A stretch of DNA of 64,000 nucleotides from Xylanibacter ruminicola (GTDB lineage: Bacteria > Bacteroidota > Bacteroidia > Bacteroidales > Bacteroidaceae): the NCBI RefSeq assembly GCF_900107775.1, contig NZ_FNRF01000003.1, forward strand, positions 434,001-498,000, in the 5' to 3' direction. A program made the translations under genes and the position numbers. Shown in pieces: positions 14,349 through 26,835 of the stretch. The notes beneath the pieces were generated by a model. That model was not told the DNA's origin. It saw only the letters and a program-made list of their open reading frames with translations, and searched no databases. Numbering within the stretch: position 1 is the first letter of the stretch; each line of letters opens with the position of its first letter.

Positions 14349-16538
14349 ATGTTTAGAGACGATACTTTAGAAAAAGTTTTGGGTGCACTCAAGGGAAAAG
14401 ACCTGATGTGCGCTATCAAGGATATGGAGAATTATCTGGCAGCCCATCCGCACCAGATTAATTCCGACCGGCTGTTTGCCATCAAAACCGATTATCAGAT
14501 GATGATCGACTATTGGCGCAAAGGATACAAAGACCCGGAACTGCCACAGCTTTACCATAAGCTGCTGCACCGCATGTATGTGCTTTATGCCAACGTGATG
14601 ACCAATGCCCGCGTGCTGCAATCGCCCCTGATGGCATCGCTCTTTATGAAGGCACACCTGAGTCCGCGTGACTGGTCGGTACAGGTAGTTCGCGAACAGT
14701 TAGAGAAGTTCGTGTCTGATATCGCCTTGCTCGAACTGGAACCTCAGCACATCGTAAAAGAGCGTCGCAAAGCGCTGCACCAGCAGCACACTCAACTGAT
14801 GACTGAGCTTTTTGCCCACATTCTGACTGCCGACTTATGGACCGACGGACAGGGTGAGTCTATCGAGCAGCTGTTGTTGTCGCCCACCGTTGATTCTGCC
14901 GACCAGCAGCTCATTGTAAGTGCCATCACACTAGCATCCATGAACTGCTACGATATGGTTAAGTTCCGTACACTCATCCATGTGTACCAGCAGTCGATTG
15001 ATGAGTATGTGCGCCAGCGAGCCCTGTTCGGTTGGGTGTTCTCGCTCGATAACGAGTTAGAGGAATTCCTCTTCCCTGAGATGCGAACGCTGGTTGAGCA
15101 AACCGTGCAGAACCCCAACTGCATGAAGGAACTGATTGAACTTCAGGAGCAGTTCTTCTATTGTCTGAGTGCCGATGAGGACCGTAATACCATTGAGAAG
15201 GAGATTATGCCCGAGTTGTTAAAGAATCAGCAGAAGATGCAGCATAGAGACGAGCAGGAACAGGACGAGGAGAGTATCCTGAATGATATTCTGCATCCTG
15301 ATGCCGAAGAGCAGGAGTTTGAAAAGTTAGAGAACACCTTCCATCGTATGATCGACATGCAGAAGCAGGGTAGCGATGTGTATTTTGGTGGTTTCTCGCA
15401 GATGAAGCGTTACCCGTTCTTTAACGAGATATCTAACTGGTTTACTCCGTTCTTTACCGATCACCCAGGCGTAGCACAGACTTGGGATAAGTATGGCAAC
15501 GTTAAGTTCCTGTCGGGCATTCTTGAGTTTGGCCCGTTCTGCAATAGCGATAAGTACTCGTTCCTGCTGGCCTTCGAGACTGTGCTGAATGGTATTCCCG
15601 AAAATGTCCGCCAGATGCTGGATCGTGGCGAGGCCGTGATGTATCAGAAGTTAGGAACAGAGGAAATGAGTACGCCTGCCTATATCCGTCGTATCTATCT
15701 GCAGGACATGTTCCGTTTCTTCCGTCTTAATCCGCTTCACAACGAGTTTAAGAACGTGTTCGAGAAGGATTCGTTCCAGAGCATGTTCATTACCCGAACT
15801 GCATTTGATAATACTGATATACAGGCTTATTTTAAGGATGTGGTTGCTTTCCTGATTAAACGTAACCAGAAGTATTATGCCAAAGGGTTGATGGATAATT
15901 GGTTTGAGGAGAGGTATCACGATTACGATTACTATATGCTAAAGGGGTATCTGGGTGATAATGCCGAGGATAGCTATCGCAAGGCCCTTGAGTTGAATCC
16001 TCAGAGTGAGCGGGCTTTATTAGGCTTGGCCCGTATCTGGTTTAAACATATGGATTATGAGAAAGCGCTCGATGCCTATAACCAGTTGCTGGAGATGAAT
16101 GCCGATAAGAAATCGTATCAGCTTAACAAAGCCATCTGTCTTACCAACCTGTATCGTTTTGATGAGGCCGAACAGATTCTGTTCCGTCTGAACTACGAGG
16201 ATGCCGATAATCTGGATGTAGTACGTGTATTGGCTTGGGCACTTACTGGCAACGGCAAGTACGAACAGGCAGAGCGCCTGTACGAACAGCTGAATGAACA
16301 GGAAGAACCTAATGAAATCGATGCCATCAACTATGGTTTCTATCTGTGGTTCACAGGTAAGATTGACGATGCCGCCAACTGCTTCCGTACCTACGTAACC
16401 AATGCCAAACCCAGGGAGGATCGTTGGAGTGCCGTTTGTGATCTGATTTACAAAGAGCACGAACTGCTCATGCAAAAAGGCATTACTGAGCGTGAGATGC
16501 GGATGATGGTAGATTGGGTTGACGTTTACAACGCTTAG
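14349..16538 (+). CDS. Large TPR-repeat protein of unknown function
   Basis: This 729-residue protein has no signal peptide and is largely helical. Its C-terminal third has clear tetratricopeptide repeats, such as AEDSYRKALELNPQSERAL, MDYEKALDAYNQLLEMN and GKYEQAERLYEQLNEQ. The N-terminal 400 residues are helical and acidic but carry no motif that I recognise. TPR proteins scaffold protein complexes; the partner is unknown. It is likely cytoplasmic and co-transcribed with the lipoprotein three bases upstream. Its last 56 bases overlap the convergent acyltransferase gene. Confidence 0.75.
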   Translation: MFRDDTLEKVLGALKGKDLMCAIKDMENYLAAHPHQINSDRLFAIKTDYQMMIDYWRKGYKDPELPQLYHKLLHRMYVLYANVMTNARVLQSPLMASLFMKAHLSPRDWSVQVVREQLEKFVSDIALLELEPQHIVKERRKALHQQHTQLMTELFAHILTADLWTDGQGESIEQLLLSPTVDSADQQLIVSAITLASMNCYDMVKFRTLIHVYQQSIDEYVRQRALFGWVFSLDNELEEFLFPEMRTLVEQTVQNPNCMKELIELQEQFFYCLSADEDRNTIEKEIMPELLKNQQKMQHRDEQEQDEESILNDILHPDAEEQEFEKLENTFHRMIDMQKQGSDVYFGGFSQMKRYPFFNEISNWFTPFFTDHPGVAQTWDKYGNVKFLSGILEFGPFCNSDKYSFLLAFETVLNGIPENVRQMLDRGEAVMYQKLGTEEMSTPAYIRRIYLQDMFRFFRLNPLHNEFKNVFEKDSFQSMFITRTAFDNTDIQAYFKDVVAFLIKRNQKYYAKGLMDNWFEERYHDYDYYMLKGYLGDNAEDSYRKALELNPQSERALLGLARIWFKHMDYEKALDAYNQLLEMNADKKSYQLNKAICLTNLYRFDEAEQILFRLNYEDADNLDVVRVLAWALTGNGKYEQAERLYEQLNEQEEPNEIDAINYGFYLWFTGKIDDAANCFRTYVTNAKPREDRWSAVCDLIYKEHELLMQKGITEREMRMMVDWVDVYNA

Positions 16539-17637
16539 TCTTCCACTTTTCAGATAGCCATGTGCCCAGTAATGGTAAGCCTACACCAGCAATGGTGTAG
16601 AGCACCCAGAACGCGTCGTGCTGCGAGTTGTGGTGTATCACCATGTGGCAACCTATCTGGCGGATATCCAAGCTGTAATACCATATCTTTATCAAGCTAA
16701 CCACCTTGTAGGCTACAATGTGGAAGATAAAGATATTCAGCGTGTGGTCGCCCGTATATACCAGGAATCGTTTCAGCCAGTTATCTTTCTTGTCAAGCAG
16801 CATACTGATGTTGTACATCATCAGGAATCCCAGAATGGCTGGTATAGGCAGCGACAGGAACTGGGTATAGGTAGAGCGCCAGTTCATGTTGGCTGTGAGG
16901 TAGTGCGAGAACAGATATACAACAATGCCAAACATTATAGTAGTCCAGAAGATGGCATAGTAGCGCTTGATAGCCGCTTGATAACTCTCGGCATACTGTC
17001 GGAAAATAAATCCGCAACCAAAGAAGAAACAGCCCATCATATCGCGATAACCGCCCTGTATCAGTGTCAGCACCCTCAGCCCCTCGTAGGTTTTCCAGCC
17101 GCACAGCAACAGCATAATGACACAGATGAGGTAGGGGATGGCTTTTTTATAGCGTGCGGATGATATCGTGCTGTCGAACACCTTATATATAATAAGGTAT
17201 AAGATGCTAGCTACAAACAATCCACGGAAGAACCAGAACGCACCACATAGGAATGCATCGTATCCTGCCATCGAGGTAAAGATGGTCCATAGGTTCTGCT
17301 GCATCTGGTGCCAGCTGTAAGGGTGGGTAACACCGCCCATCTCGTTGCCATACATTTCGTTCAGGATACCAATCTTGAACATCAGATTATGGATAAGCAG
17401 GAAGAACACGCTCCATTTTACAAAGGGGATATAAAGGCCCTTTACGCGCTTTTTTACAAACGTGGCTTCATCGTTCAGGTACTTCAGTGAGAAGAAGTAG
17501 CCTGCAGTGATAAAGAATAGCGGCATGTGAAACTCGAAAATGAATCGGCATAGCCAGCCTGGAGCCTCGGCATGAGCTATCACCATCAGGATGATGGCTA
17601 AACCCTTTGCTATAGATATGACGGTGTTTCTGTTCAT
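16483..17637 (-). CDS. Membrane acyltransferase, family 3
   Basis: This 384-residue integral membrane protein has about ten hydrophobic segments. The N-terminal SIAKGLAIILMVIAHAEAPG with its His, and the following HMPLFFITAGYFF, are typical of acyltransferase family 3 (OafA/WecH-like). These move acyl groups onto surface sugars or lipids at the inner membrane; the acceptor is unknown. It lies six bases after the cardiolipin-synthase-like gene in the same direction, as the last gene of the operon begun by the regulator at 22655. Its 3' end overlaps the convergent TPR gene by 56 bases. Confidence 0.85.
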   Translation of the reverse strand: MNRNTVISIAKGLAIILMVIAHAEAPGWLCRFIFEFHMPLFFITAGYFFSLKYLNDEATFVKKRVKGLYIPFVKWSVFFLLIHNLMFKIGILNEMYGNEMGGVTHPYSWHQMQQNLWTIFTSMAGYDAFLCGAFWFFRGLFVASILYLIIYKVFDSTISSARYKKAIPYLICVIMLLLCGWKTYEGLRVLTLIQGGYRDMMGCFFFGCGFIFRQYAESYQAAIKRYYAIFWTTIMFGIVVYLFSHYLTANMNWRSTYTQFLSLPIPAILGFLMMYNISMLLDKKDNWLKRFLVYTGDHTLNIFIFHIVAYKVVSLIKIWYYSLDIRQIGCHMVIHHNSQHDAFWVLYTIAGVGLPLLGTWLSEKWKTKRCKRQPNLPSSASHAQ

Positions 17638-17643
17638 GAGTGC

Positions 17644-18879
17644 TTACATAAATGGGGTAAATAATTGGGCAAACCAGCCACGGAACTTCTGCCAGCCTGT
17701 ACGGAACTTGTTCCACTCGTCGGGCGTTAACAGCACGCTCTTCTTGGTGTCGCGTATAAACATATCCTGCAACTCCTGGGTTACCTGCTTGTTAATTATC
17801 AATGCATTCACCTCGTAGTCGTATCGCAAGCTGCGTGAATCCAGGTTGGTACTGCCCACGGTGCAGAACCGGCCATCCACCATCATAATCTTAGAGTGAT
17901 GGAATCCTGGCTGATACAGCCAAATGTTGGCGCCCTTCTTCATCAGTTTGTGTACATTATAGAATACGGCATCGGGTGTTAAGGGAATATCGCTCTTGGC
18001 TGATACCAGGATATCAACCTTTACACCACGCTTGATGGCACGATGAATAGCCTTTTTTACAGATGGCGTGAGTGTAAAGTAGGGGTTGATAATCTGGATA
18101 GAGTCCTGTGCATCGTCGAGTGCCGAGATATAGAACTGACGCATGATCTTGTTGGTTTTGTTGGGTTCACGATTTGCGATACCCACCATCTTATTGCCTT
18201 TGTCCTGACCCTGATAGTATTTGGAATCGTTCAGTTGCTCCTTGGTAACCTTCTGCCAGATACGGGCAAAGATTTCCTGCAGTTCGTTAACTACAGGCCC
18301 CTCAATGCGGCAATGCATATCGCGCCATTCGCCCACCTGTTTGGTGCCCACAATATAGTAATCGGCCACGTTCATACCACCCGTATAGGCAATACGTCCG
18401 TCGATCACAACAATCTTTCGATGATCGCGAGGCCAGATGTGGTTTACCCAAGGAAAACGCACAGGGTCGTACTCGTGGATATCGATGCTGTCGGCACGTA
18501 GACTCTTGATGTGATGTTTCTTCAGTGGCTGGTTGTTCGAGTCATTACCAAACCCGTCGAACAGCGCACGTACCTCAACACCCTGCTTGCGCTTCTCGCG
18601 CAGTATGTCGAACAGCAGCGAGGCTATCGAGTCGTTGCGAAAATTAAAATACTCAAGGTGTACACTGCTCTTGGCCTGTCGGATGTCCTCGAACAAGAGG
18701 TCGAACTTATCCTTACCCGACATAATCAGTTGTACCTCGTTATGTGGGTAGAAGTTAATACCAACAGTTTTCATTTGGCTCACTATCAGCGAGTCGCTTG
18801 TCTGAGCTTTTCCAATCAGAGAAATCAGCAGGAATAGCATGATGGCTATTCCTGTCTGATGTTGTTTACTTAATATCAT
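17644..18879 (-). CDS. Phospholipase D / cardiolipin synthase family protein with export signal
   Basis: This 411-residue protein has two catalytic HKD motifs, DHRKIVVIDGRIAYTGG (about 155-171) and HHSKIMMVDGRFCTVGS (about 329-345). These are the pair used by cardiolipin synthases and other phospholipase D enzymes. Usual bacterial cardiolipin synthases start with two membrane helices. Here the N-terminus is a signal peptide (HQTGIAIMLFLLISLIGKAQT), placing the catalytic domain in the periplasm or outside. It may make cardiolipin from phosphatidylglycerol on the outer leaflet or hydrolyse another phosphodiester. The start overlaps the regulator's stop by four bases, so expression is coupled to it. 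Confidence 0.85.
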   Translation of the reverse strand: MILSKQHQTGIAIMLFLLISLIGKAQTSDSLIVSQMKTVGINFYPHNEVQLIMSGKDKFDLLFEDIRQAKSSVHLEYFNFRNDSIASLLFDILREKRKQGVEVRALFDGFGNDSNNQPLKKHHIKSLRADSIDIHEYDPVRFPWVNHIWPRDHRKIVVIDGRIAYTGGMNVADYYIVGTKQVGEWRDMHCRIEGPVVNELQEIFARIWQKVTKEQLNDSKYYQGQDKGNKMVGIANREPNKTNKIMRQFYISALDDAQDSIQIINPYFTLTPSVKKAIHRAIKRGVKVDILVSAKSDIPLTPDAVFYNVHKLMKKGANIWLYQPGFHHSKIMMVDGRFCTVGSTNLDSRSLRYDYEVNALIINKQVTQELQDMFIRDTKKSVLLTPDEWNKFRTGWQKFRGWFAQLFTPFM

Positions 18880-21800
18880 TTACGATGTTTCAATCTGTAT
18901 TCGAGTGGCGTCATGCCGAACTTTTCCTTGAAGATATTGATGAAGTTCTCGGCCGTCATAAATCCAATGTTCGACGCCAACTCACTCATGTTAATATTAG
19001 TGCGTTTCAGCAGAATGCAGGCGTGTTTCAGTCGCATGTCTCTCACGAGCTCTGCTGGTGTTTTGCTTGTCAGGCTGCGAACACGATGGAAGAATGGTAC
19101 GCGTCCCATTCCCATGGCATTGGCCATCTCTTCCAGACTGATTTGTCCGCGGCTCATATTCTGTAGTACGTATTGCTCAATGTTCTTCAGCAGCTGACGG
19201 TCCATTGCATCCATCATCGAGAAGTCGTTACCGCCGCCTTCCTCTTCGTCGTCGATGCCCTTGATACCTTCAGGTAGGTTGCTGGATGTTGCCTGACTGC
19301 GTGGGTTCTTAACCACTGTATCTACCTTGTTCATGGGGTCGTCGGCACTTACCTCGGCCAGTGCGGTGGCGCTTATCTCGCCAGCATCCATTGTCTCGGT
19401 AGCTGTGGTCATACTGCTGCTCTGTCCTTCCAGTCGACGTGTCTCTGCACCCTCAATCAGGTTGCTGTCCATCTGTACGGCACCCAATCCCAGTACCTTG
19501 TTGAATCGCATCGTGGCCTCCTGCATGTTGAATGGCTTGGCCAGATAGTCATCGGCACTTAGGGTGATATTCTTCGAGCGCATATCCTGAGGTGTTAATA
19601 CGGTGTCGGTCATCAGGATAAACTTTATGTTCTGAGTAGCGTAGTTGGTCTTCAACTGGTTACACAGGTCGCTACCAGTCATACCAAACATATCCTGCTT
19701 ACAAACCACCAGGTCGCACTTAATCTGCTCCAGATCCTCGGCAGCTTTCTCGATGTCGTTATAAACGTGGAAGTTATATACAAATCTCAGTCGTGCACCA
19801 GCAAACTCCAGAAACTCTTCGTTGTCATCGATCATGATAACGGTAAACTTCGAAGTTGGCGAGTCGATAGCAGCACGTGAGTGAGTCGATTCAGATGTCA
19901 GAACATCGCTAGCAATCTCTGGCAACTCAATCTCGCCCTTGCTGTTGATGGTCAAACGGTCCTGAACCATAGTCTTAGCGCGCTCCTCTGGGTGTTCCAG
20001 ATTCATCTGCATATCAGCCACTCGAGTGATAATCTGTAGCATCTGCGAGTGCAGTGCATTCAACTGTTCTTTCTCCTCAAGCGTCTTCTCTTTCTCCGAC
20101 AGGTTACCAATGATAGATGTCATACGAGCCATAGGCTGTCGTAAGTCGTCGCTCGCAGCCTTAATCTCCTCGCGTTGCAGTTTCAGTTCTTTGATCACAG
20201 CCTCCTTACGGTGCTTGATGGCTTTAAGCTGATTGATACCTATGCGCCAGAAGTAGATGATTACCGCCAGCACAATCAGATAGGCTGTTATCATCCACCA
20301 CGACAGCAGGAAGTGGCGCTCTACGTTGATTTCAAGCACACGCTCCTGCGTACTTACTGCTCCCTCGGCGTTGATGGCTTTTACGTGCAGATAGTACTTA
20401 CCTGCCGACAGGTTGTTGAAGTTTACACCATGCGACAGCGCGTCACCATGATGCCAGTCTTCGTCTCGACCTTCCATCCAGTACATAAACTGTAGGCGCT
20501 CGCTCTGGTTGTAGTTACCAGCAGCAAACTTGATGCTGAAGGTGCTCTGGTTGTGAGCCAGATCGATACGACTGGTTTCGTTCAGAGCCTGAGTAAGTAT
20601 CACCTTGCCATGATACTCATGACCGGTAATAATCTCTTCTTCGCCGATAAACAGCTGGGTGAGCATCACACGTGGCAGGTCCTCCTTCTCGGCACCATCT
20701 CTGTGCAGTACCCAGTTCACACCATATAGTCCGCCCAGCAATACCTCGCCATCTTGTTTGGTTAGGATAGCACCGGTATTAAACTCGTTGCTCTGCAAAC
20801 CATCGGCTGTGCTGTAGTTGTACAGACCATAGTTGTTTACACCGTCCTCGTGGTTACGCTGTATCACAATACGGCTCACACCACGGCTTGTGGTTACCCA
20901 GATGCAGTGGTTCTTGTCCTCGGCAATACCGCAGATGTTATTATTGCATAAGCCCTGCTTCTCGGTAAGATAGTCGAGCTCATCTGTCTCCAGATTCAGA
21001 ATGTTCAGTCCTTCGCGAGTACCAACCCAAATCAGTCCGCGCGAATCCTGGAATATCTGCGTAATATAGTTGTTGGTAAAGCTCTTCAGGTTGGTGCTGT
21101 TACCTGTCAGAACCTTCTTCTCGGTGGTTGAGAGGTTCAGGATAATCAGTCCCTCGCTGGTACCTACCAAAAGGTTATTGGCATTAGCATCCTGCTTGTA
21201 GAACAAACTGGTAATGCTGTTGGTGCTCAACTTACCATTCTCGCGTGTATAACTTGAGAACGAGTTCATTCGTGGGTTGTACACCTGCAGACCACCGTTG
21301 GTGGCTATCCACAGGTTACCAATCTTATCGCATGTCAGGGCGTTGATATGGTCGTCGATAATGGTACGAACGCTGTCCTTTGATACCGAGTAGATGGTTG
21401 ATACACCATCCTTGATGCGTGTCAGTCCGTTACGCTTTGAACCAATCCAGATACTTCCATCAGGGGTGGTGCTCATGCACGATACCTTCAGACTAGCCAA
21501 CTTTCCATCGAAACCTATCACACCTCGGTCGCTTGTTCCGTACCAGATGGTGCCATTGGGATGTTGCGCCATAGCGGTTACATCGCCCATTAGGTCGGAA
21601 CCAAAGCGGTAGATATACTTACCGGTATAGGCCACACCCGATTTCTCGGTTCCTACCCAGAGCAAACCAGTATCGTCCATATACAGACTCTGAATACTGG
21701 TGTGGTCTTTTACCCATTGCTGCTCGTTGATGTTCTTAGGCTGAACCTCCTGATACTCGAAGGTCTTAGGATCAAAGCGAATCAGTCCTAACTGGTCGCT

Positions 21801-22655
21801 ACCAACCCATATGCTACCGGCACTACTAGCCATTCCGTTGATGTTACGATCCACACCCAGACCTGTTACACCCAGTTTCTCGCCCATGGTGTAGTCCCAA
21901 GTGCCTTTCTGTTTGTCGTACATCACCAGAGTGCCCTGTCCGTACAACCAGATGTTATCATTCACATCTGCGTAGGCACGCAGCGATTTTGTGCGATGAT
22001 CTCTCAGTGCGGGGATTCCCTCTTTTACCCAGAGAGTGCTTTGCTGGTGCATCACATCGCAGCAGGCTATCTTACCATCGTCGTAAACAATCAGGGCACC
22101 CTCCTTGCATTCGCTGATTGAGCAAACCACGCCTTGCGGCACACCTTTCGCATCATCGGTATAACCAAACTCATGCAGTGTTTGCTGCTGTTGGTTATAG
22201 CAAACCACACCTTTGTTAGGGATGGCTCCCCAAAGATTCTTGTGCTTATCTACATATACCACCGATGGGATGGTTTCGATACCCATGCGTGCAAAGGCTT
22301 GCTTCATATCGCGCTCAAAGCTCTCTGTCTGTGGGTGGTAGATGCAGTAGCCTGAGGCTGTTTCGATGAGCAGGTTGCCATCGAGTGTTTCCTGGATAGA
22401 GTTGATATAGCTATCGCTCAGCGAGCTGCCGTTCTGCGAGTCGCTCTGGAAGTTACGGAAGGTGTATCCATCAAAGCGGTACAAGCCTGCTGGGGTACCA
22501 AACCACATGTAACCTCGAGAGTCCTTTAATATGCAGTTTACCTGACTGGATGTCAGTCCATCGCGGGCTTCCAGTGTTTTAAACAGATAAGCAGCCACCA
22601 CTCCCAGCGGAATGATGAGCATTAAGGCGATTAGTATTTTCTTTATAGTCTTCAT
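18876..22655 (-). CDS. HTCS-type membrane regulator without kinase: beta-propeller sensor, degenerate receiver, AraC domain
   Basis: This 1259-residue protein has the outline of a Bacteroidales hybrid two-component regulator. An N-terminal membrane anchor and two periplasmic propellers of Reg_prop repeats (DSRGYMWFGTPAGLYRFDG and many more) precede a Y_Y_Y domain. A transmembrane helix (WWMITAYLIVLAVIIYFW), a coiled coil, a receiver domain (about 935-1050) and a C-terminal AraC DNA-binding domain (about 1160-1259) follow. The kinase is missing: the usual SHELRTP box reads SDDLRQP (Asp836 replaces the phosphorylated His), no ATP-binding domain follows, and the receiver's phospho-acceptor is Lys986 (VVCKQDMFG). 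It must signal without phosphotransfer. The ATG at 22655 replaces an upstream GTG. It leads an operon with two envelope enzymes. Confidence 0.88.
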   Translation of the reverse strand: MKTIKKILIALMLIIPLGVVAAYLFKTLEARDGLTSSQVNCILKDSRGYMWFGTPAGLYRFDGYTFRNFQSDSQNGSSLSDSYINSIQETLDGNLLIETASGYCIYHPQTESFERDMKQAFARMGIETIPSVVYVDKHKNLWGAIPNKGVVCYNQQQQTLHEFGYTDDAKGVPQGVVCSISECKEGALIVYDDGKIACCDVMHQQSTLWVKEGIPALRDHRTKSLRAYADVNDNIWLYGQGTLVMYDKQKGTWDYTMGEKLGVTGLGVDRNINGMASSAGSIWVGSDQLGLIRFDPKTFEYQEVQPKNINEQQWVKDHTSIQSLYMDDTGLLWVGTEKSGVAYTGKYIYRFGSDLMGDVTAMAQHPNGTIWYGTSDRGVIGFDGKLASLKVSCMSTTPDGSIWIGSKRNGLTRIKDGVSTIYSVSKDSVRTIIDDHINALTCDKIGNLWIATNGGLQVYNPRMNSFSSYTRENGKLSTNSITSLFYKQDANANNLLVGTSEGLIILNLSTTEKKVLTGNSTNLKSFTNNYITQIFQDSRGLIWVGTREGLNILNLETDELDYLTEKQGLCNNNICGIAEDKNHCIWVTTSRGVSRIVIQRNHEDGVNNYGLYNYSTADGLQSNEFNTGAILTKQDGEVLLGGLYGVNWVLHRDGAEKEDLPRVMLTQLFIGEEEIITGHEYHGKVILTQALNETSRIDLAHNQSTFSIKFAAGNYNQSERLQFMYWMEGRDEDWHHGDALSHGVNFNNLSAGKYYLHVKAINAEGAVSTQERVLEINVERHFLLSWWMITAYLIVLAVIIYFWRIGINQLKAIKHRKEAVIKELKLQREEIKAASDDLRQPMARMTSIIGNLSEKEKTLEEKEQLNALHSQMLQIITRVADMQMNLEHPEERAKTMVQDRLTINSKGEIELPEIASDVLTSESTHSRAAIDSPTSKFTVIMIDDNEEFLEFAGARLRFVYNFHVYNDIEKAAEDLEQIKCDLVVCKQDMFGMTGSDLCNQLKTNYATQNIKFILMTDTVLTPQDMRSKNITLSADDYLAKPFNMQEATMRFNKVLGLGAVQMDSNLIEGAETRRLEGQSSSMTTATETMDAGEISATALAEVSADDPMNKVDTVVKNPRSQATSSNLPEGIKGIDDEEEGGGNDFSMMDAMDRQLLKNIEQYVLQNMSRGQISLEEMANAMGMGRVPFFHRVRSLTSKTPAELVRDMRLKHACILLKRTNINMSELASNIGFMTAENFINIFKEKFGMTPLEYRLKHRK

Positions 22656-22658
22656 ATC

Positions 22659-22679
22659 GTTCACTGTTCACTCTTCACT
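22659..22679. repeat. Three tandem heptamers (GTTCACT) between kdsD and the regulator
   Basis: GTTCACT, GTTCACT, CTTCACT at 22659-22679. The repeat covers the whole gap between the kdsD stop and the regulator start, and overlaps two bases of the kdsD stop codon. Confidence 0.75.
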
Positions 22680-23628
22680 AAATCATGCACGAGTAATGGT
22701 CAACCACTCCTAGCAGGTGGTTTTCGCCATCGGTTACAAGTACCGAGTGTACCTTGTATTGGTTCATGATTCGTTGAATCTCTGTTATCTTTGTATCAGG
22801 TTTTACCATCTTTGGTGTTCGTGTCATAATGTCGCTCACGGTACGATCGAAGAACTGGGCCTGCCATTTCTCCATAGCACGACGAATGTCGCCATCGGTA
22901 ATCAGACCCACAATCTCGTTGTTCACCATCGCGATGCCCAGACCTAACTTGGCCTTGCTCACTAAGATGATGGCCTCGCCCAGATGCATCTCTGGTGGCA
23001 ATACAGGCATATCCTCTGTACGCATTACATCCTGAGCGGTTGTCAGCAGACGCTTGCCAAGCTCGCCACCGGGGTGGAACTGAGCAAAGTCGCGTGGTTG
23101 GAAGTTACGCTTTTCCATCAAGGCAATAGCCAGTGCATCGCCCATTGTTAACTGGGCTGTAGTACTGCTGGTAGGAGCCAGATTCAACGGACATGCCTCT
23201 TTCTCGACCTGCACGTTCAGGTGATAGGTAGAATATTTGGCCAACAGCGATTTGGGGTTGCCGCTCATGCCGATGATAGGTATCTGCATATGCAGTACCA
23301 TGGGGATGAAACGCAGAAGCTCGTCTGTCTGGCCTGAGTTTGATATAGCCAAAACCACGTCGTCCTGGGTCATCACACCTAAGTCGCCGTGGAATACATC
23401 CAGAGGGTTTGTAAAGAACGATGGGGTGCCAGTGCTCGACAGGGTGGCAGCAATCTTGGCACCGATATGGCCGCTCTTGCCCACGCCTGTTACGATTACC
23501 TTGCCTTTGCAGTTTAAAATCAGCTCTACAGCCTTATCGAAGTTCTCGTCAAGCTGTGGAATCAGACTCAGCACTGCCTCCGCCTCGTCTTTAATACATT
23601 GTATTGCGATATCTCTTGTAGTCTTCAT
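22678..23628 (-). CDS. kdsD: Arabinose-5-phosphate isomerase
   Basis: This 316-residue cytoplasmic enzyme converts ribulose-5-phosphate to arabinose-5-phosphate, the first step of Kdo synthesis for lipopolysaccharide. The N-terminal sugar-isomerase domain has KVIVTGVGKSGHIG (about 43-56), LDVFHGDLG and ISNSGQTDE. Two CBS domains occupy about 205-316 (MRTEDMPVL and IMTRTPKMV). Length and order match KdsD/KpsF. It starts nine bases after the kdsA stop, and the two genes are successive steps, so a shared transcript from the promoter at 24413 is likely. A heptamer repeat abuts its stop codon. Confidence 0.95.
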   Translation of the reverse strand: MKTTRDIAIQCIKDEAEAVLSLIPQLDENFDKAVELILNCKGKVIVTGVGKSGHIGAKIAATLSSTGTPSFFTNPLDVFHGDLGVMTQDDVVLAISNSGQTDELLRFIPMVLHMQIPIIGMSGNPKSLLAKYSTYHLNVQVEKEACPLNLAPTSSTTAQLTMGDALAIALMEKRNFQPRDFAQFHPGGELGKRLLTTAQDVMRTEDMPVLPPEMHLGEAIILVSKAKLGLGIAMVNNEIVGLITDGDIRRAMEKWQAQFFDRTVSDIMTRTPKMVKPDTKITEIQRIMNQYKVHSVLVTDGENHLLGVVDHYSCMI

Positions 23629-23637
23629 TTTAATCCT

Positions 23638-24402
23638 TTAATCTTCAATCAGCTTCTTTACCAGGGGCTCAAAGTTGGCGAGCTCTAACATGTTGGCGGC
23701 ATCGCTGAGGCCTTGATCTGGGGTAGGGTGCACTTCAAAGAAGTAGCCTGTGGCACCAAAGGCCTTTGCGGCCAATGCCATCTGTGGTACAAAACGGCGA
23801 TCGCCACCAGTCTTGCCATCGCTGCCACCAGGGCGCTGAACACTATGTGTACAGTCCATGATAACCGTTGGTACAATCTCCAGCATGTCAGGGATGTTAC
23901 GGAAATCAACCACCAGGTTGTTATAGCCCATCATGTTGCCACGCTCAGTCAACCAAACATCCTTGGCGCCAGCATCCTTTGCCTTGCCTACGGGGTAAAC
24001 CATGTCTTTACCCGAAAGGAACTGGGCTTTCTTGATGTTTACTACAGCACCAGTCTTGGCTGCAGCAACAATCAAATCGGTCTGTCTGCACAGAAATGCC
24101 GGTATCTGAATTACGTCGCACACCTCGCCAACGGGCTTAGCCTGCCAGCTCTCGTGTATATCTGTCAGAATGCGCAATCCGTACTTCGACTTGATGTCAG
24201 CCAACATCTGCAGTCCACGGTCGATACCTGGGCCACGGAATGAAGTAATCGATGTACGGTTAGCCTTGTCGAACGAGGCTTTGAAGATAATGTCGGTACC
24301 ATGTGTTTTATTGATACTCACCAATTCCTGCGCTACCGTGTCGAGCAGTTCAGCCGACTCGATAACGCAAGGTCCTGCTATGATAGTTGTCATTTTGCTC
24401 AT
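23638..24402 (-). CDS. kdsA: Kdo-8-phosphate synthase
   Basis: This 254-residue cytoplasmic aldolase condenses arabinose-5-phosphate with phosphoenolpyruvate to give Kdo-8-phosphate. Visible family motifs are AGPCVIES (8-15), FKASFDKANRTS (about 41-52), LTDIHES and the C-terminal FFEVHPTPDQGLSDAANML. The protein is shorter than the E. coli enzyme (284), as is common in this family. It is followed directly by kdsD, its substrate supplier, so the pair forms a small Kdo operon. Confidence 0.96.
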   Translation of the reverse strand: MSKMTTIIAGPCVIESAELLDTVAQELVSINKTHGTDIIFKASFDKANRTSITSFRGPGIDRGLQMLADIKSKYGLRILTDIHESWQAKPVGEVCDVIQIPAFLCRQTDLIVAAAKTGAVVNIKKAQFLSGKDMVYPVGKAKDAGAKDVWLTERGNMMGYNNLVVDFRNIPDMLEIVPTVIMDCTHSVQRPGGSDGKTGGDRRFVPQMALAAKAFGATGYFFEVHPTPDQGLSDAANMLELANFEPLVKKLIED

Positions 24403-24412
24403 AATTATGCTG

Positions 24413-24420
24413 CAAAAATA
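24413..24420 (-). promoter_or_regulatory. -7 promoter box of kdsA-kdsD
   Basis: The minus strand reads TATTTTTG, 11 bases before the kdsA start, giving a very short leader. Confidence 0.55.
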
Positions 24421-24498
24421 CGCATTTTCTCTAAATCCGCCAAATTATTTATTAATAATTTTAGTTTTGCTTACGGATTATGCGGAATTTACAACTTT

Positions 24499-26835
24499 TT
24501 ACCCATTGATTAAGTGTACATCGTGCTGTGGGAATGGGATAGAGATGTGATGCTCGTTCAGTGTGTCGTAAACGCACTTCAGTACCTCGCTGATAACGTA
24601 TGTACGCTTAGGAGCCTCGGCCCAGATTGCCAGTTTGAAGTTCACACTCGAGTCGGCCATTTCGGTAGCCACGCACTTGGCCTGTTTCTCAGGGTCGATA
24701 TACTGGTTGTGCATGGCGTTTACAGCCGCTTCAACCAAGTTGGTCACCTCCTTAAGGTTCGAGCCGTAGGCCACGCCGAATGGGATGGTAGTGAGCACAT
24801 AACCATGATTACGTGTCAGGTTCTTGTAGTTCTTAGTGAACAGCTGAGCGTTCTGGAAGGTAATTACTTCACCTTGGATTGATTCTATCACTGTAGATGT
24901 GTAGCTGATAGATACTACTTTACCCATCGTGCCATCTACATCAATCCAGTCGCCCACTTTTATGCGTCCTGCCATCAGCGAGGCGCCATAGTAGATATTC
25001 TCAATGATATCTTTTGAGGCGAAACCGATACCTGTTGATAAGCCGCCTCCCAAGGCAAGCATCCAGTAGATACTGATGTTAAGCAACGATAGCGAGAACA
25101 TCAGCCACATGCCCCATACCAGTACCTGTATCACGTTGCGTCCCATCACCTCCTTGCTGGCGGCTGTAGATGGATCGCTTATCTGGTAGTGCATCTTCAG
25201 GAATGCCAGAATTGTCTTGGATACGTAACGGAACAGGAACCACGAGTTAATCACCATAATCAGTTTTACCAGCGATATCTGCAGGTTTGGCGTATCTACA
25301 ACGGGATACATGAATATTCTCACACACATATCCGTGAGGTTAAATACCTTGGCAGCCCAGTAGATACTCAGCAGGATGGAGTGTACACCCAGTACAGGCA
25401 TAGCCACTTTCTCAACCAGATAGTACCACCATGTCTGCGTTATGGGTTTGTCGGTCAGTCGTTTACGCTTAGCGTATATCTCCAGGTAACGGCTGATGCA
25501 GGTGATGGTAAGGATACATGTGAGCTGCATGATCCACCAGATGATGAGTTGTACGGCAAACAATGTGTAACCTATCATCGAGCATACTACTGAAGCTACG
25601 AATACGATGAGCGATACGTAGGTGTAGAAGATGTCGCTACGTGGAATGTTCTGATTGTGGCGACGTATTACCAGCCATTGCCACAGCGCACACAGCAGCA
25701 GGATAGGAGGCAGTACCAGGTTTACCAGCTCGTTAGGAATCAGGATGATACGACATCCGATCACTACGAATCCTACTGCAATTAAAGGCGCGTAGATACG
25801 GAAGGCGCTCTTTATTTGGTCGCCTTTCACGCGCAGCAGTAGCGAGAACAATACCACACCCAGCAGCCACGAATACTCTACCAGCAGGCCCGAGGCCATA
25901 ATCAGGAAGTTCTGATTCGAGTTATTGATCACCAGTCCCTGTATGATGGCAAAGGTTACCGTGGTGGTAGCCATGATAATGCAGGCGCGTTTTTTCTTGA
26001 ACTCCTCGGTCTTTACCTTGTTGGGGAGTATGAACTTGAAGAACAGTAGGTTGAGTATGATAGATACGATGACGTAGAACACGATACCAAGGAACATGCC
26101 GAATATCCACTGCGGACTCCATTGCGAGTTGGCATTGGCATTAAAGCTGTACTTTTTCTGTATGTTGTCGGTTATCTGTTGCCATCGGCGACCTAAGTTC
26201 TGTAGCAGGGTGGGGTAGCTGTCGCCGCCATTAATGAAAATGCTCTGCTGTATGTCCGAATAGCGTTTCTGGGCGTACTCGTTCAGTTCGCTCAAACGGT
26301 TTTCGGCCTTTGTGTACAGATAGATGTTTCGACGCAGTATATTGGCGTTCACCTCCAGTTTCTCACGGATGCTCTGGGCCAGCACCAGACAAGAGTCGCG
26401 ATTGCTGGTACCGTATTTGGTCATAATGCGTGTAGGGATACCTTGCAGATGGTTTATCAGACTGTCGTATCTGACAATCTCACCCTCGGTTTTCTCCAAG
26501 AAACTGGTAAAAGGCAGTTGCTGTCTATGAAAATCGCGATACTGCTGTGTGGCCTCATGGCAAGCATAAGTCAGGTCGAACACATTATCCTGCTGCTGCG
26601 AGTACAGCATCAGTGCATTCTGATCGGCTCGCTTCATGGTGCCCATCAACTGCTGTATCAGTCGTTTGGCGCGATCCCTGCGTGCTGTCGAACGTCGGTC
26701 CAGTTCGTTGTTGTATTGCTTCAGTTCGGTACGCAGAATACCCAACGTCTGTTCCAGATCTTTCTCCTTTAGTACCGCGCCAGCCTCGGTAACGATGGCC
26801 AATGCGAATATACAAAACACCAATAATCTTTTCAT
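24499..26835 (-). CDS. MscS-family mechanosensitive channel with long N-terminal extension
   Basis: This 778-residue membrane protein opens a pore under membrane tension. A signal peptide (MKRLLVFCIFALAIVTEAGA) precedes about 220 residues of periplasmic, helical, coiled-coil sequence (ELKQYNNELDRRSTARRDRA). Many membrane segments follow. The MscS core is near the C-terminus: the pore helix has ALGGGLSTGIGFASKDIIEN, followed by the beta-domain GRIKVGDWIDVDGTMGKVV. It resembles the large MscK/YbdG-type members rather than the 286-residue MscS. It has its own promoter and is divergent from the BadF-type kinase gene. Confidence 0.9.
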   Translation of the reverse strand: MKRLLVFCIFALAIVTEAGAVLKEKDLEQTLGILRTELKQYNNELDRRSTARRDRAKRLIQQLMGTMKRADQNALMLYSQQQDNVFDLTYACHEATQQYRDFHRQQLPFTSFLEKTEGEIVRYDSLINHLQGIPTRIMTKYGTSNRDSCLVLAQSIREKLEVNANILRRNIYLYTKAENRLSELNEYAQKRYSDIQQSIFINGGDSYPTLLQNLGRRWQQITDNIQKKYSFNANANSQWSPQWIFGMFLGIVFYVIVSIILNLLFFKFILPNKVKTEEFKKKRACIIMATTTVTFAIIQGLVINNSNQNFLIMASGLLVEYSWLLGVVLFSLLLRVKGDQIKSAFRIYAPLIAVGFVVIGCRIILIPNELVNLVLPPILLLCALWQWLVIRRHNQNIPRSDIFYTYVSLIVFVASVVCSMIGYTLFAVQLIIWWIMQLTCILTITCISRYLEIYAKRKRLTDKPITQTWWYYLVEKVAMPVLGVHSILLSIYWAAKVFNLTDMCVRIFMYPVVDTPNLQISLVKLIMVINSWFLFRYVSKTILAFLKMHYQISDPSTAASKEVMGRNVIQVLVWGMWLMFSLSLLNISIYWMLALGGGLSTGIGFASKDIIENIYYGASLMAGRIKVGDWIDVDGTMGKVVSISYTSTVIESIQGEVITFQNAQLFTKNYKNLTRNHGYVLTTIPFGVAYGSNLKEVTNLVEAAVNAMHNQYIDPEKQAKCVATEMADSSVNFKLAIWAEAPKRTYVISEVLKCVYDTLNEHHISIPFPQHDVHLING

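Follow-up and report, generated by a model that had tools for sequence, protein, structure and literature searches.

Hybrid two-component systems (HTCSs) are the closest described systems to the regulator analysed here. In proteins such as BT4663 (PDB 4a2l) and BT4124, a propeller and a Y_Y_Y domain, membrane segments, a HisKA-like hairpin, a receiver fold and an AraC domain are joined in a single chain. In Bacteroides HTCSs, an S/CHIP motif of the receiver and a D...K pair of the AraC domain keep the latter inactive until phosphorylation, and deviations allow DNA binding without phosphorylation (PMC11253607). The same source described BT4236, an HTCS whose His is replaced by Gln848, for which its authors suggested a phosphorylation-independent mechanism (PMC11253607). 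HisKA domains lack the His in 0.9% of cases and receiver domains the Asp in 2.0% (PMC12632262); common replacements of the receiver Asp are Glu, Asn, Ser, Gly and Ala, and Lys is not among them (PMC4395418). Transmembrane transcription regulators have also been surveyed (PMC10269533).

The window, i.e. the whole stretch of 64,000 nucleotides of Xylanibacter ruminicola DNA that was analysed, carries a gene, here called REG, whose product is probably an HTCS-derived, membrane-anchored one-component regulator of the AraC type that works independently of phosphotransfer, with DNA binding predicted from homology. All the parts listed above for HTCSs have their counterparts in REG. In contrast to HTCSs, REG has no HATPase, Asp or Glu replaces the His, and Lys replaces both the receiver Asp and the Pro of the SHIP region; about 100 residues (94-176) separate receiver and AraC domain, against 27-38 in sister HTCSs, and the gene belongs to a kdsA-kdsD group instead of a polysaccharide locus. 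The features that define an HTCS were thus found in part: a propeller/Y_Y_Y sensor and AraC/HTH_18 are present, whereas the His, HATPase_c and the receiver Asp are absent. Nor was REG linked to a polysaccharide utilisation locus, a common but not strictly defining trait of HTCSs.

Natural loss of the phospho-acceptor His is common to REG and BT4236; by its description, BT4236 is a His substitution in one HTCS, whereas REG represents a syntenic clade that is also without HATPase and receiver Asp (PMC11253607). Propeller-Y_Y_Y-TM-AraC one-component proteins likewise join a membrane sensor to AraC with no kinase, but they have neither hairpin nor receiver, both of which REG keeps in an inactive but conserved form. 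Like aspartate-less receivers (RitR, ChxR and others; PMC4395418, PMC12632262), REG shows a receiver fold without phospho-Asp and keeps T1019 and K1043; it differs from them by a replacement that is Lys, invariant and located inside a pseudo-HTCS. Finally, a histidine-kinase-like protein of Caulobacter was repurposed for a non-kinase role (PMC4211667). REG may be similar in this respect. The Caulobacter pseudo-histidine kinase in question, which we take to be DivL, retains a catalytic domain and has a separate kinase as its target, whereas REG is without a catalytic domain and has a DNA-binding output of its own.

Domain layout and phosphotransfer positions

Residues of REG are numbered from the GTG start, i.e. 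three higher than the ATG-based numbers of the initial annotation. Most orthologues align from residue 4, which makes the ATG at 22655 the more likely start. The frame is intact over the 1259 residues that had been annotated.

18876-22664 (-), whole REG ORF; 1262 aa from GTG, 1259 aa from ATG at 22655
22581-22643 (-), N-terminal signal sequence or membrane segment, residues 8-28; hydrophobic stretch in the sequence
20565-22580 (-), periplasmic Reg_prop beta-propeller sensor, about residues 29-700; Pfam E 7.3e-31, six stretches
20322-20516 (-), Y_Y_Y domain, residues 717-781; Pfam E 3.7e-10
20244-20303 (-), second membrane helix, about residues 788-807; sequence, and a continuous helix in the AlphaFold2 model
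19974-20228 (-), pseudo-DHp or HisKA-like hairpin, about residues 813-897; weak in-register HisKA match, two modelled helices, invariant motif
20148-20150 (-), codon of D839 (Asp836 of the initial annotation), at the phospho-acceptor His position; codon read directly, alignment
19851-19973 (-), variable spacer of about 41-42 residues at the usual place of HATPase_c; sequence comparison, model
19479-19850 (-), pseudo-receiver, residues 939-1062, (beta-alpha)5 fold; Pfam E 1.7e-11, structural matches with Z up to 17.5
19698-19700 (-), codon of K989 (Lys986 of the initial annotation), at the phospho-acceptor Asp position; codon read directly, invariant
19221-19478 (-), receiver-to-AraC linker, residues 1063-1148, mostly disordered; alignment, AlphaFold2
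18879-19220 (-), AraC-type DNA-binding domain, residues 1149-1262; Pfam HTH_18 at 1180-1257, E 4.2e-15

The sensor, membrane helix, receiver and AraC parts named in the initial annotation were all recovered by Pfam, sequence and AlphaFold2, in the order signal/TM, Reg_prop propeller, Y_Y_Y, TM, HisKA-like hairpin, receiver-like domain and AraC domain, and a membrane segment and a DNA-binding domain consequently share one chain. The nearest solved structures were the HTCS sensors 4a2l (E 5e-63 with the REG sensor), 3v9f and 3ott; the Pfam Response_reg match covered residues 942-1050. An AlphaFold2 model of the cytoplasmic part of REG, made with 18 orthologues, had one long helix spanning TM and hairpin, then a second hairpin helix. 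A disordered spacer led from there to the (beta-alpha)5 receiver, and a further disordered stretch, the long linker, to the helices of the AraC domain. The overall confidence of the model was low (pTM 0.32), and domain packing is not readable from it, but there is no doubt about the fold of the receiver. When the whole model was compared with known structures, receiver matches alone were listed, the hairpin and AraC parts being hardly covered.

The annotated replacement of the phospho-acceptor His was confirmed at codon level: D839, within A-S-D-D-L-R-Q-P, sits on the usual His column of the HisKA profile. This profile matched REG below threshold (E 0.04; residues 830-885 on profile positions 2-57) and weakly matched 15 of 18 diverse orthologues, in register (Pfam). 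A first alignment of 81 sequences contained D (67) or E (14) at residue 839 and D (53) or E (28) at residue 840, followed by invariant L841-R842-Q843-P844, within the conserved pattern QREEIK..S[DE][DE]LRQPM[AS]RM. The hairpin is predicted to dimerise. H872, an invariant residue of the second hairpin helix, was considered as a shifted phospho-acceptor and rejected; it also occurs in intact HTCSs (IHRN) and therefore looks structural.

Absence of the ATP-binding domain, the second element of the initial reading, also stood. HATPase_c was not found in REG by Pfam, nor in 18 diverse orthologues even at E<=1 among the matches listed (25 of 44 families); hairpin and receiver are about 42 residues apart, and the AlphaFold2 model left no space there for a HATPase fold. 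A divergent HATPase hidden at residues 850-935 was ruled out by these Pfam searches of REG and the 18 orthologues and by AlphaFold2.

As for the receiver, the reported Lys was again found at codon level, as K989 within V-C-K-Q-D. The initial annotation had proposed a comparison of orthologues at both acceptor positions: D or E occupied residue 839 and Lys residue 989 in 81/81 sequences, and no orthologue with intact His and Asp was among them. C988, D946, T1019 and K1043 were also invariant and Y1040 nearly so, while D947, the second metal-binding acid, was variable. With the fold kept (Pfam, structural match) and the phospho-Asp gone, this domain is an aspartate-less pseudo-receiver. D991, two residues after K989, was rejected as a shifted acceptor since the position is variable (Asp in 52/81). 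No route for His-Asp phosphotransfer is left in REG.

At the contact between receiver and AraC domain, the Pro of the SHIP region was Lys1014 in 80/81 REG sequences; the D on the AraC side was kept in 80/81, its partner K being K or R. Sister HTCSs are also without a perfect S/CHIP, theirs being x-[G/D/S]-IP or a similar sequence, so that the argument from a relieved inhibitory contact is partial for REG. Plain loss of S/CHIP was accordingly discarded as a hallmark, the sisters being non-consensus at S/C-H already and the Pro-to-Lys change alone being REG-specific. The linker has a conserved IEG-ETR-LE--SMTTAT stretch near its start, and the AraC domain is the most conserved of all REG domains (mean 85% identity to the window copy). 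The Pro-to-Lys change, the lengthened linker and the fixed kdsA-kdsD operon were not in the initial annotation.

Conservation, ancestry and genomic setting

A genome scan recovered 80 orthologues of REG, with 60-98% identity, from Prevotella-type genomes. When loci from further genomes were added, S-[DE]-[DE] preceded LRQP in 105 distinct relatives, and Lys stood at the receiver Asp position ('CK') in all 103 that could be scored. Pairwise dN/dS was 0.017-0.060 over the whole gene, 0.014-0.065 in the sensor and, where dS was measurable, 0.013-0.030 in the hairpin and 0.015-0.079 in the pseudo-receiver; all domains are under strong purifying selection. That the protein is not a product of simple decay, as had been proposed, was upheld by identical substitutions in every orthologue, dN/dS of about 0.02-0.06 and fixed synteny. 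All three phosphotransfer elements are gone, as might be expected of a recent pseudogene or of a single-genome oddity left open by chance. However, more than 100 relatives keep the same altered form in the same genomic place, hence REG is not a decaying outlier, and a pseudogene, contradicted by 105 distinct intact relatives with these dN/dS values and synteny, can be given next to no credence.

In a sensor-profile search of 198 genomes of the genus, REG-type proteins, taken as matches above 900 bits, occurred in 65 genomes (REG+) and not in the other 133 (REG-). Below these scores there was a sharp fall to about 540 bits, the level of ordinary HTCSs of about 1390 residues. An IQ-TREE phylogeny of the sensors placed the REG clade (support 100) beside another clade (100), made up of intact HTCSs and derivatives; the sister HTCSs retain SHELRTP (SHDLRAP in one), the glycine boxes of the HATPase and the Asp of the receiver. 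REG is best read as derived from an HTCS. A cytoplasmic-profile search of 295 genomes of the order (E<=1e-30) found the REG clade in one GTDB genus only, to which strong full-length matches within the family were likewise confined.

The neighbourhood of REG in the window comprised the following features.

24499-26835 (-), MscS-type gene; at many orthologous loci a flank of the kdsA-kdsD-REG-PLD group
24409-24444 (-), predicted Bacteroidetes-type promoter TTTGG ... TATTTTTG, before kdsA; conserved at this place in other species
23638-24402 (-), kdsA, 3-deoxy-8-phosphooctulonate synthase; TIGR01362 E 4e-104
22678-23628 (-), kdsD, KpsF/GutQ family arabinose-5-phosphate isomerase, directly upstream of REG; TIGR00393 322 bits
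17644-18879 (-), cardiolipin-synthase-like PLD protein with signal sequence; TIGR04265 287 bits (just below the cut-off of 290), PLDc_2
16483-17637 (-), Acyltransferase-3 gene; flanks the same group in many orthologous loci

The start codon of the PLD gene overlaps the REG stop. The order kdsD-REG-PLD was observed at 80/80 orthologous loci, most of which also had mscS and kdsA before and the acyltransferase after; spacing was about -12 to 65 nt between kdsD and REG, and REG and PLD often overlapped. We infer co-transcription of kdsA-kdsD-REG-PLD. Upstream of kdsA the standard Bacteroidetes promoter was clear, and no separate REG site was found there. This promoter lies only about 10 nt before the kdsA start, which implies a very short 5' leader.

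Of 21 REG- genomes from the genus, 20 had kdsD as the direct collinear neighbour of the PLD gene, and the remaining one (G609) had the two adjacent but divergent. In a kdsD+PLD tree, REG+ loci stood apart from REG- loci (bipartition support 61), which fits a single gain or a single loss of REG and vertical descent. An apparent kdsD-REG fusion in G694 (a 1535-aa frame) was rejected, the extension being not KdsD protein but merely open frame. The MscS-type and Acyltransferase-3 flanks lend the REG neighbourhood an envelope theme. From gene position alone, it may be guessed that the regulon is envelope-related (Kdo/LPS, phospholipid); target genes are not deducible from a single operon position.

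Proposed mechanism

The initial annotation had proposed membrane-to-DNA signalling without phosphotransfer. The second half of this proposal stood, phosphotransfer parts being lost under purifying selection; the signalling and the DNA binding are likely by homology. In such a regulator, a periplasmic propeller/Y_Y_Y dimer would bind a signal or a partner, and the resulting sensor movement would pass through the second membrane helix to the retained pseudo-DHp hairpin, which may work as a dimerising mechanical rod with no enzymatic role. The pseudo-receiver could serve as a protein-protein module for docking or dimerisation, in which K989 might form a salt bridge to the invariant D946, a possible stand-in for Mg2+ and phosphate. 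Presentation to DNA of the two AraC domains, carried on long flexible linkers, would then be altered by the transmitted movement. The same genome encodes six propeller-Y_Y_Y-TM-AraC proteins without kinase, hairpin or receiver, which indicates that coupling to AraC without a kinase is nothing exceptional in this family.

Transmission from sensor to DNA-binding domain is hard to dissect in HTCSs because phosphotransfer and conformational change share one chain. REG can be regarded as a natural experiment from which phosphotransfer has been removed while sensor, hairpin, receiver and output were kept under selection, and it lets the roles of hairpin and receiver be asked apart from chemistry. 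It also suggests that HTCS-type sensors serve outside glycan utilisation.

Related sensor paralogues and alternative readings

Several further sensor proteins were recorded.

L090:1456-4554 (= L253:7018-10116; contig C8 of the genome that encodes REG, about 205018-208116), L090 paralogue of 1032 aa; sensor-TM-coil-HATPase
L260:9101-12142, L264:5911-9033, L265:300-3449, L266:5742-8876, sensor-TM-pseudoDHp-AraC proteins without HATPase and receiver
L254:3947-6568, L258:3754-6360, L263:9330-11981, short sensor + TM proteins of 868-883 aa

It is unlikely that K989, as the initial annotation had suggested, fixes the receiver in one state, leaving a constitutive activator or repressor for which the sensor is irrelevant. 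Such a lock would agree with the invariance of K989, with the phosphate-independent activity that Asp replacement can give to receivers (PMC4395418) and with the unphosphorylated DNA binding permitted by non-consensus REC-AraC contacts in Bacteroides (PMC11253607). However, a locked protein would not need a sensor, and that of REG is as constrained as the rest of the protein (mean 72% identity over orthologues, with the dN/dS given above); the six one-component relatives, moreover, keep their sensors without any receiver. A kinase-dead phosphatase, whose D/E840 and Q843 would dephosphorylate another response regulator in trans, is highly improbable. Both the acid that follows the His column and the amide Q843 are indeed invariant, but canonical HisKA phosphatases use Thr or Asn, not Gln, at the position of Q843, and REG has no phosphate to remove from its own receiver and no known partner. 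A survey also argued that kinases without the His do not in general serve as phosphatases (PMC12632262).

A dominant-negative or adaptor role, with heterodimerisation of REG with an intact HTCS or another membrane partner, which it would sequester or whose ATPase it would borrow, seems decidedly unlikely, even though its pseudo-DHp dimerisation hairpin is retained and strongly conserved. A candidate partner was the L090-type paralogue, which consists of propeller, Y_Y_Y, TM, a coil with an invariant W-M and a HATPase_c with degraded G2 box; no HisKA, receiver or HTH match was found in L090 and its relatives. It was present in 33/65 REG+ and 0/133 REG- genomes (Fisher p about 1e-19). Yet it is missing from 32 REG+ genomes, its sensor falls within the HTCS clade, apart from REG, its gene lies in a sugar locus next to GH31-like genes (so called by eye), and in one genome it has its own adjoining pseudoDHp-AraC partner; REG, for its part, has its own highly conserved AraC domain. 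The co-occurrence, which shared ancestry alone can explain and to which it is most simply ascribed, is thus confounded, and L090 was rejected as the missing half of REG on account of the sensor tree and gene context. A self-contained one-component regulator remains the preferred reading of REG.

The hairpin motif of the L260, L264, L265 and L266 proteins reads SDELRQPF, SDELRLSF, NDELRQPF or SGDLRPCF, and the His-to-Asp change in hairpins of the L260 type apparently arose independently of that in REG. As a similar SDELRQP occurs separately in these receiver-less relatives (L260; partly L264-L266), S-[DE]-[DE]-L-R-Q-P may be recurrent. It is conceivable, but rather doubtful, that this motif represents a selected, kinase-free propeller-to-AraC coupling and that an HTCS-type clade was rebuilt as a phosphate-free mechanical switch and moved from glycan utilisation to the operon for lipopolysaccharide (Kdo) biosynthesis, where it would monitor the envelope. 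The L260 gene, which encodes SDELRQPF, directly follows a HATPase-only gene, which suggests a split pair. The short L254, L258 and L263 proteins end in an acidic tail only (EEAIILDDEE-like), which resembles the tail of the adjoining HATPase-only proteins.
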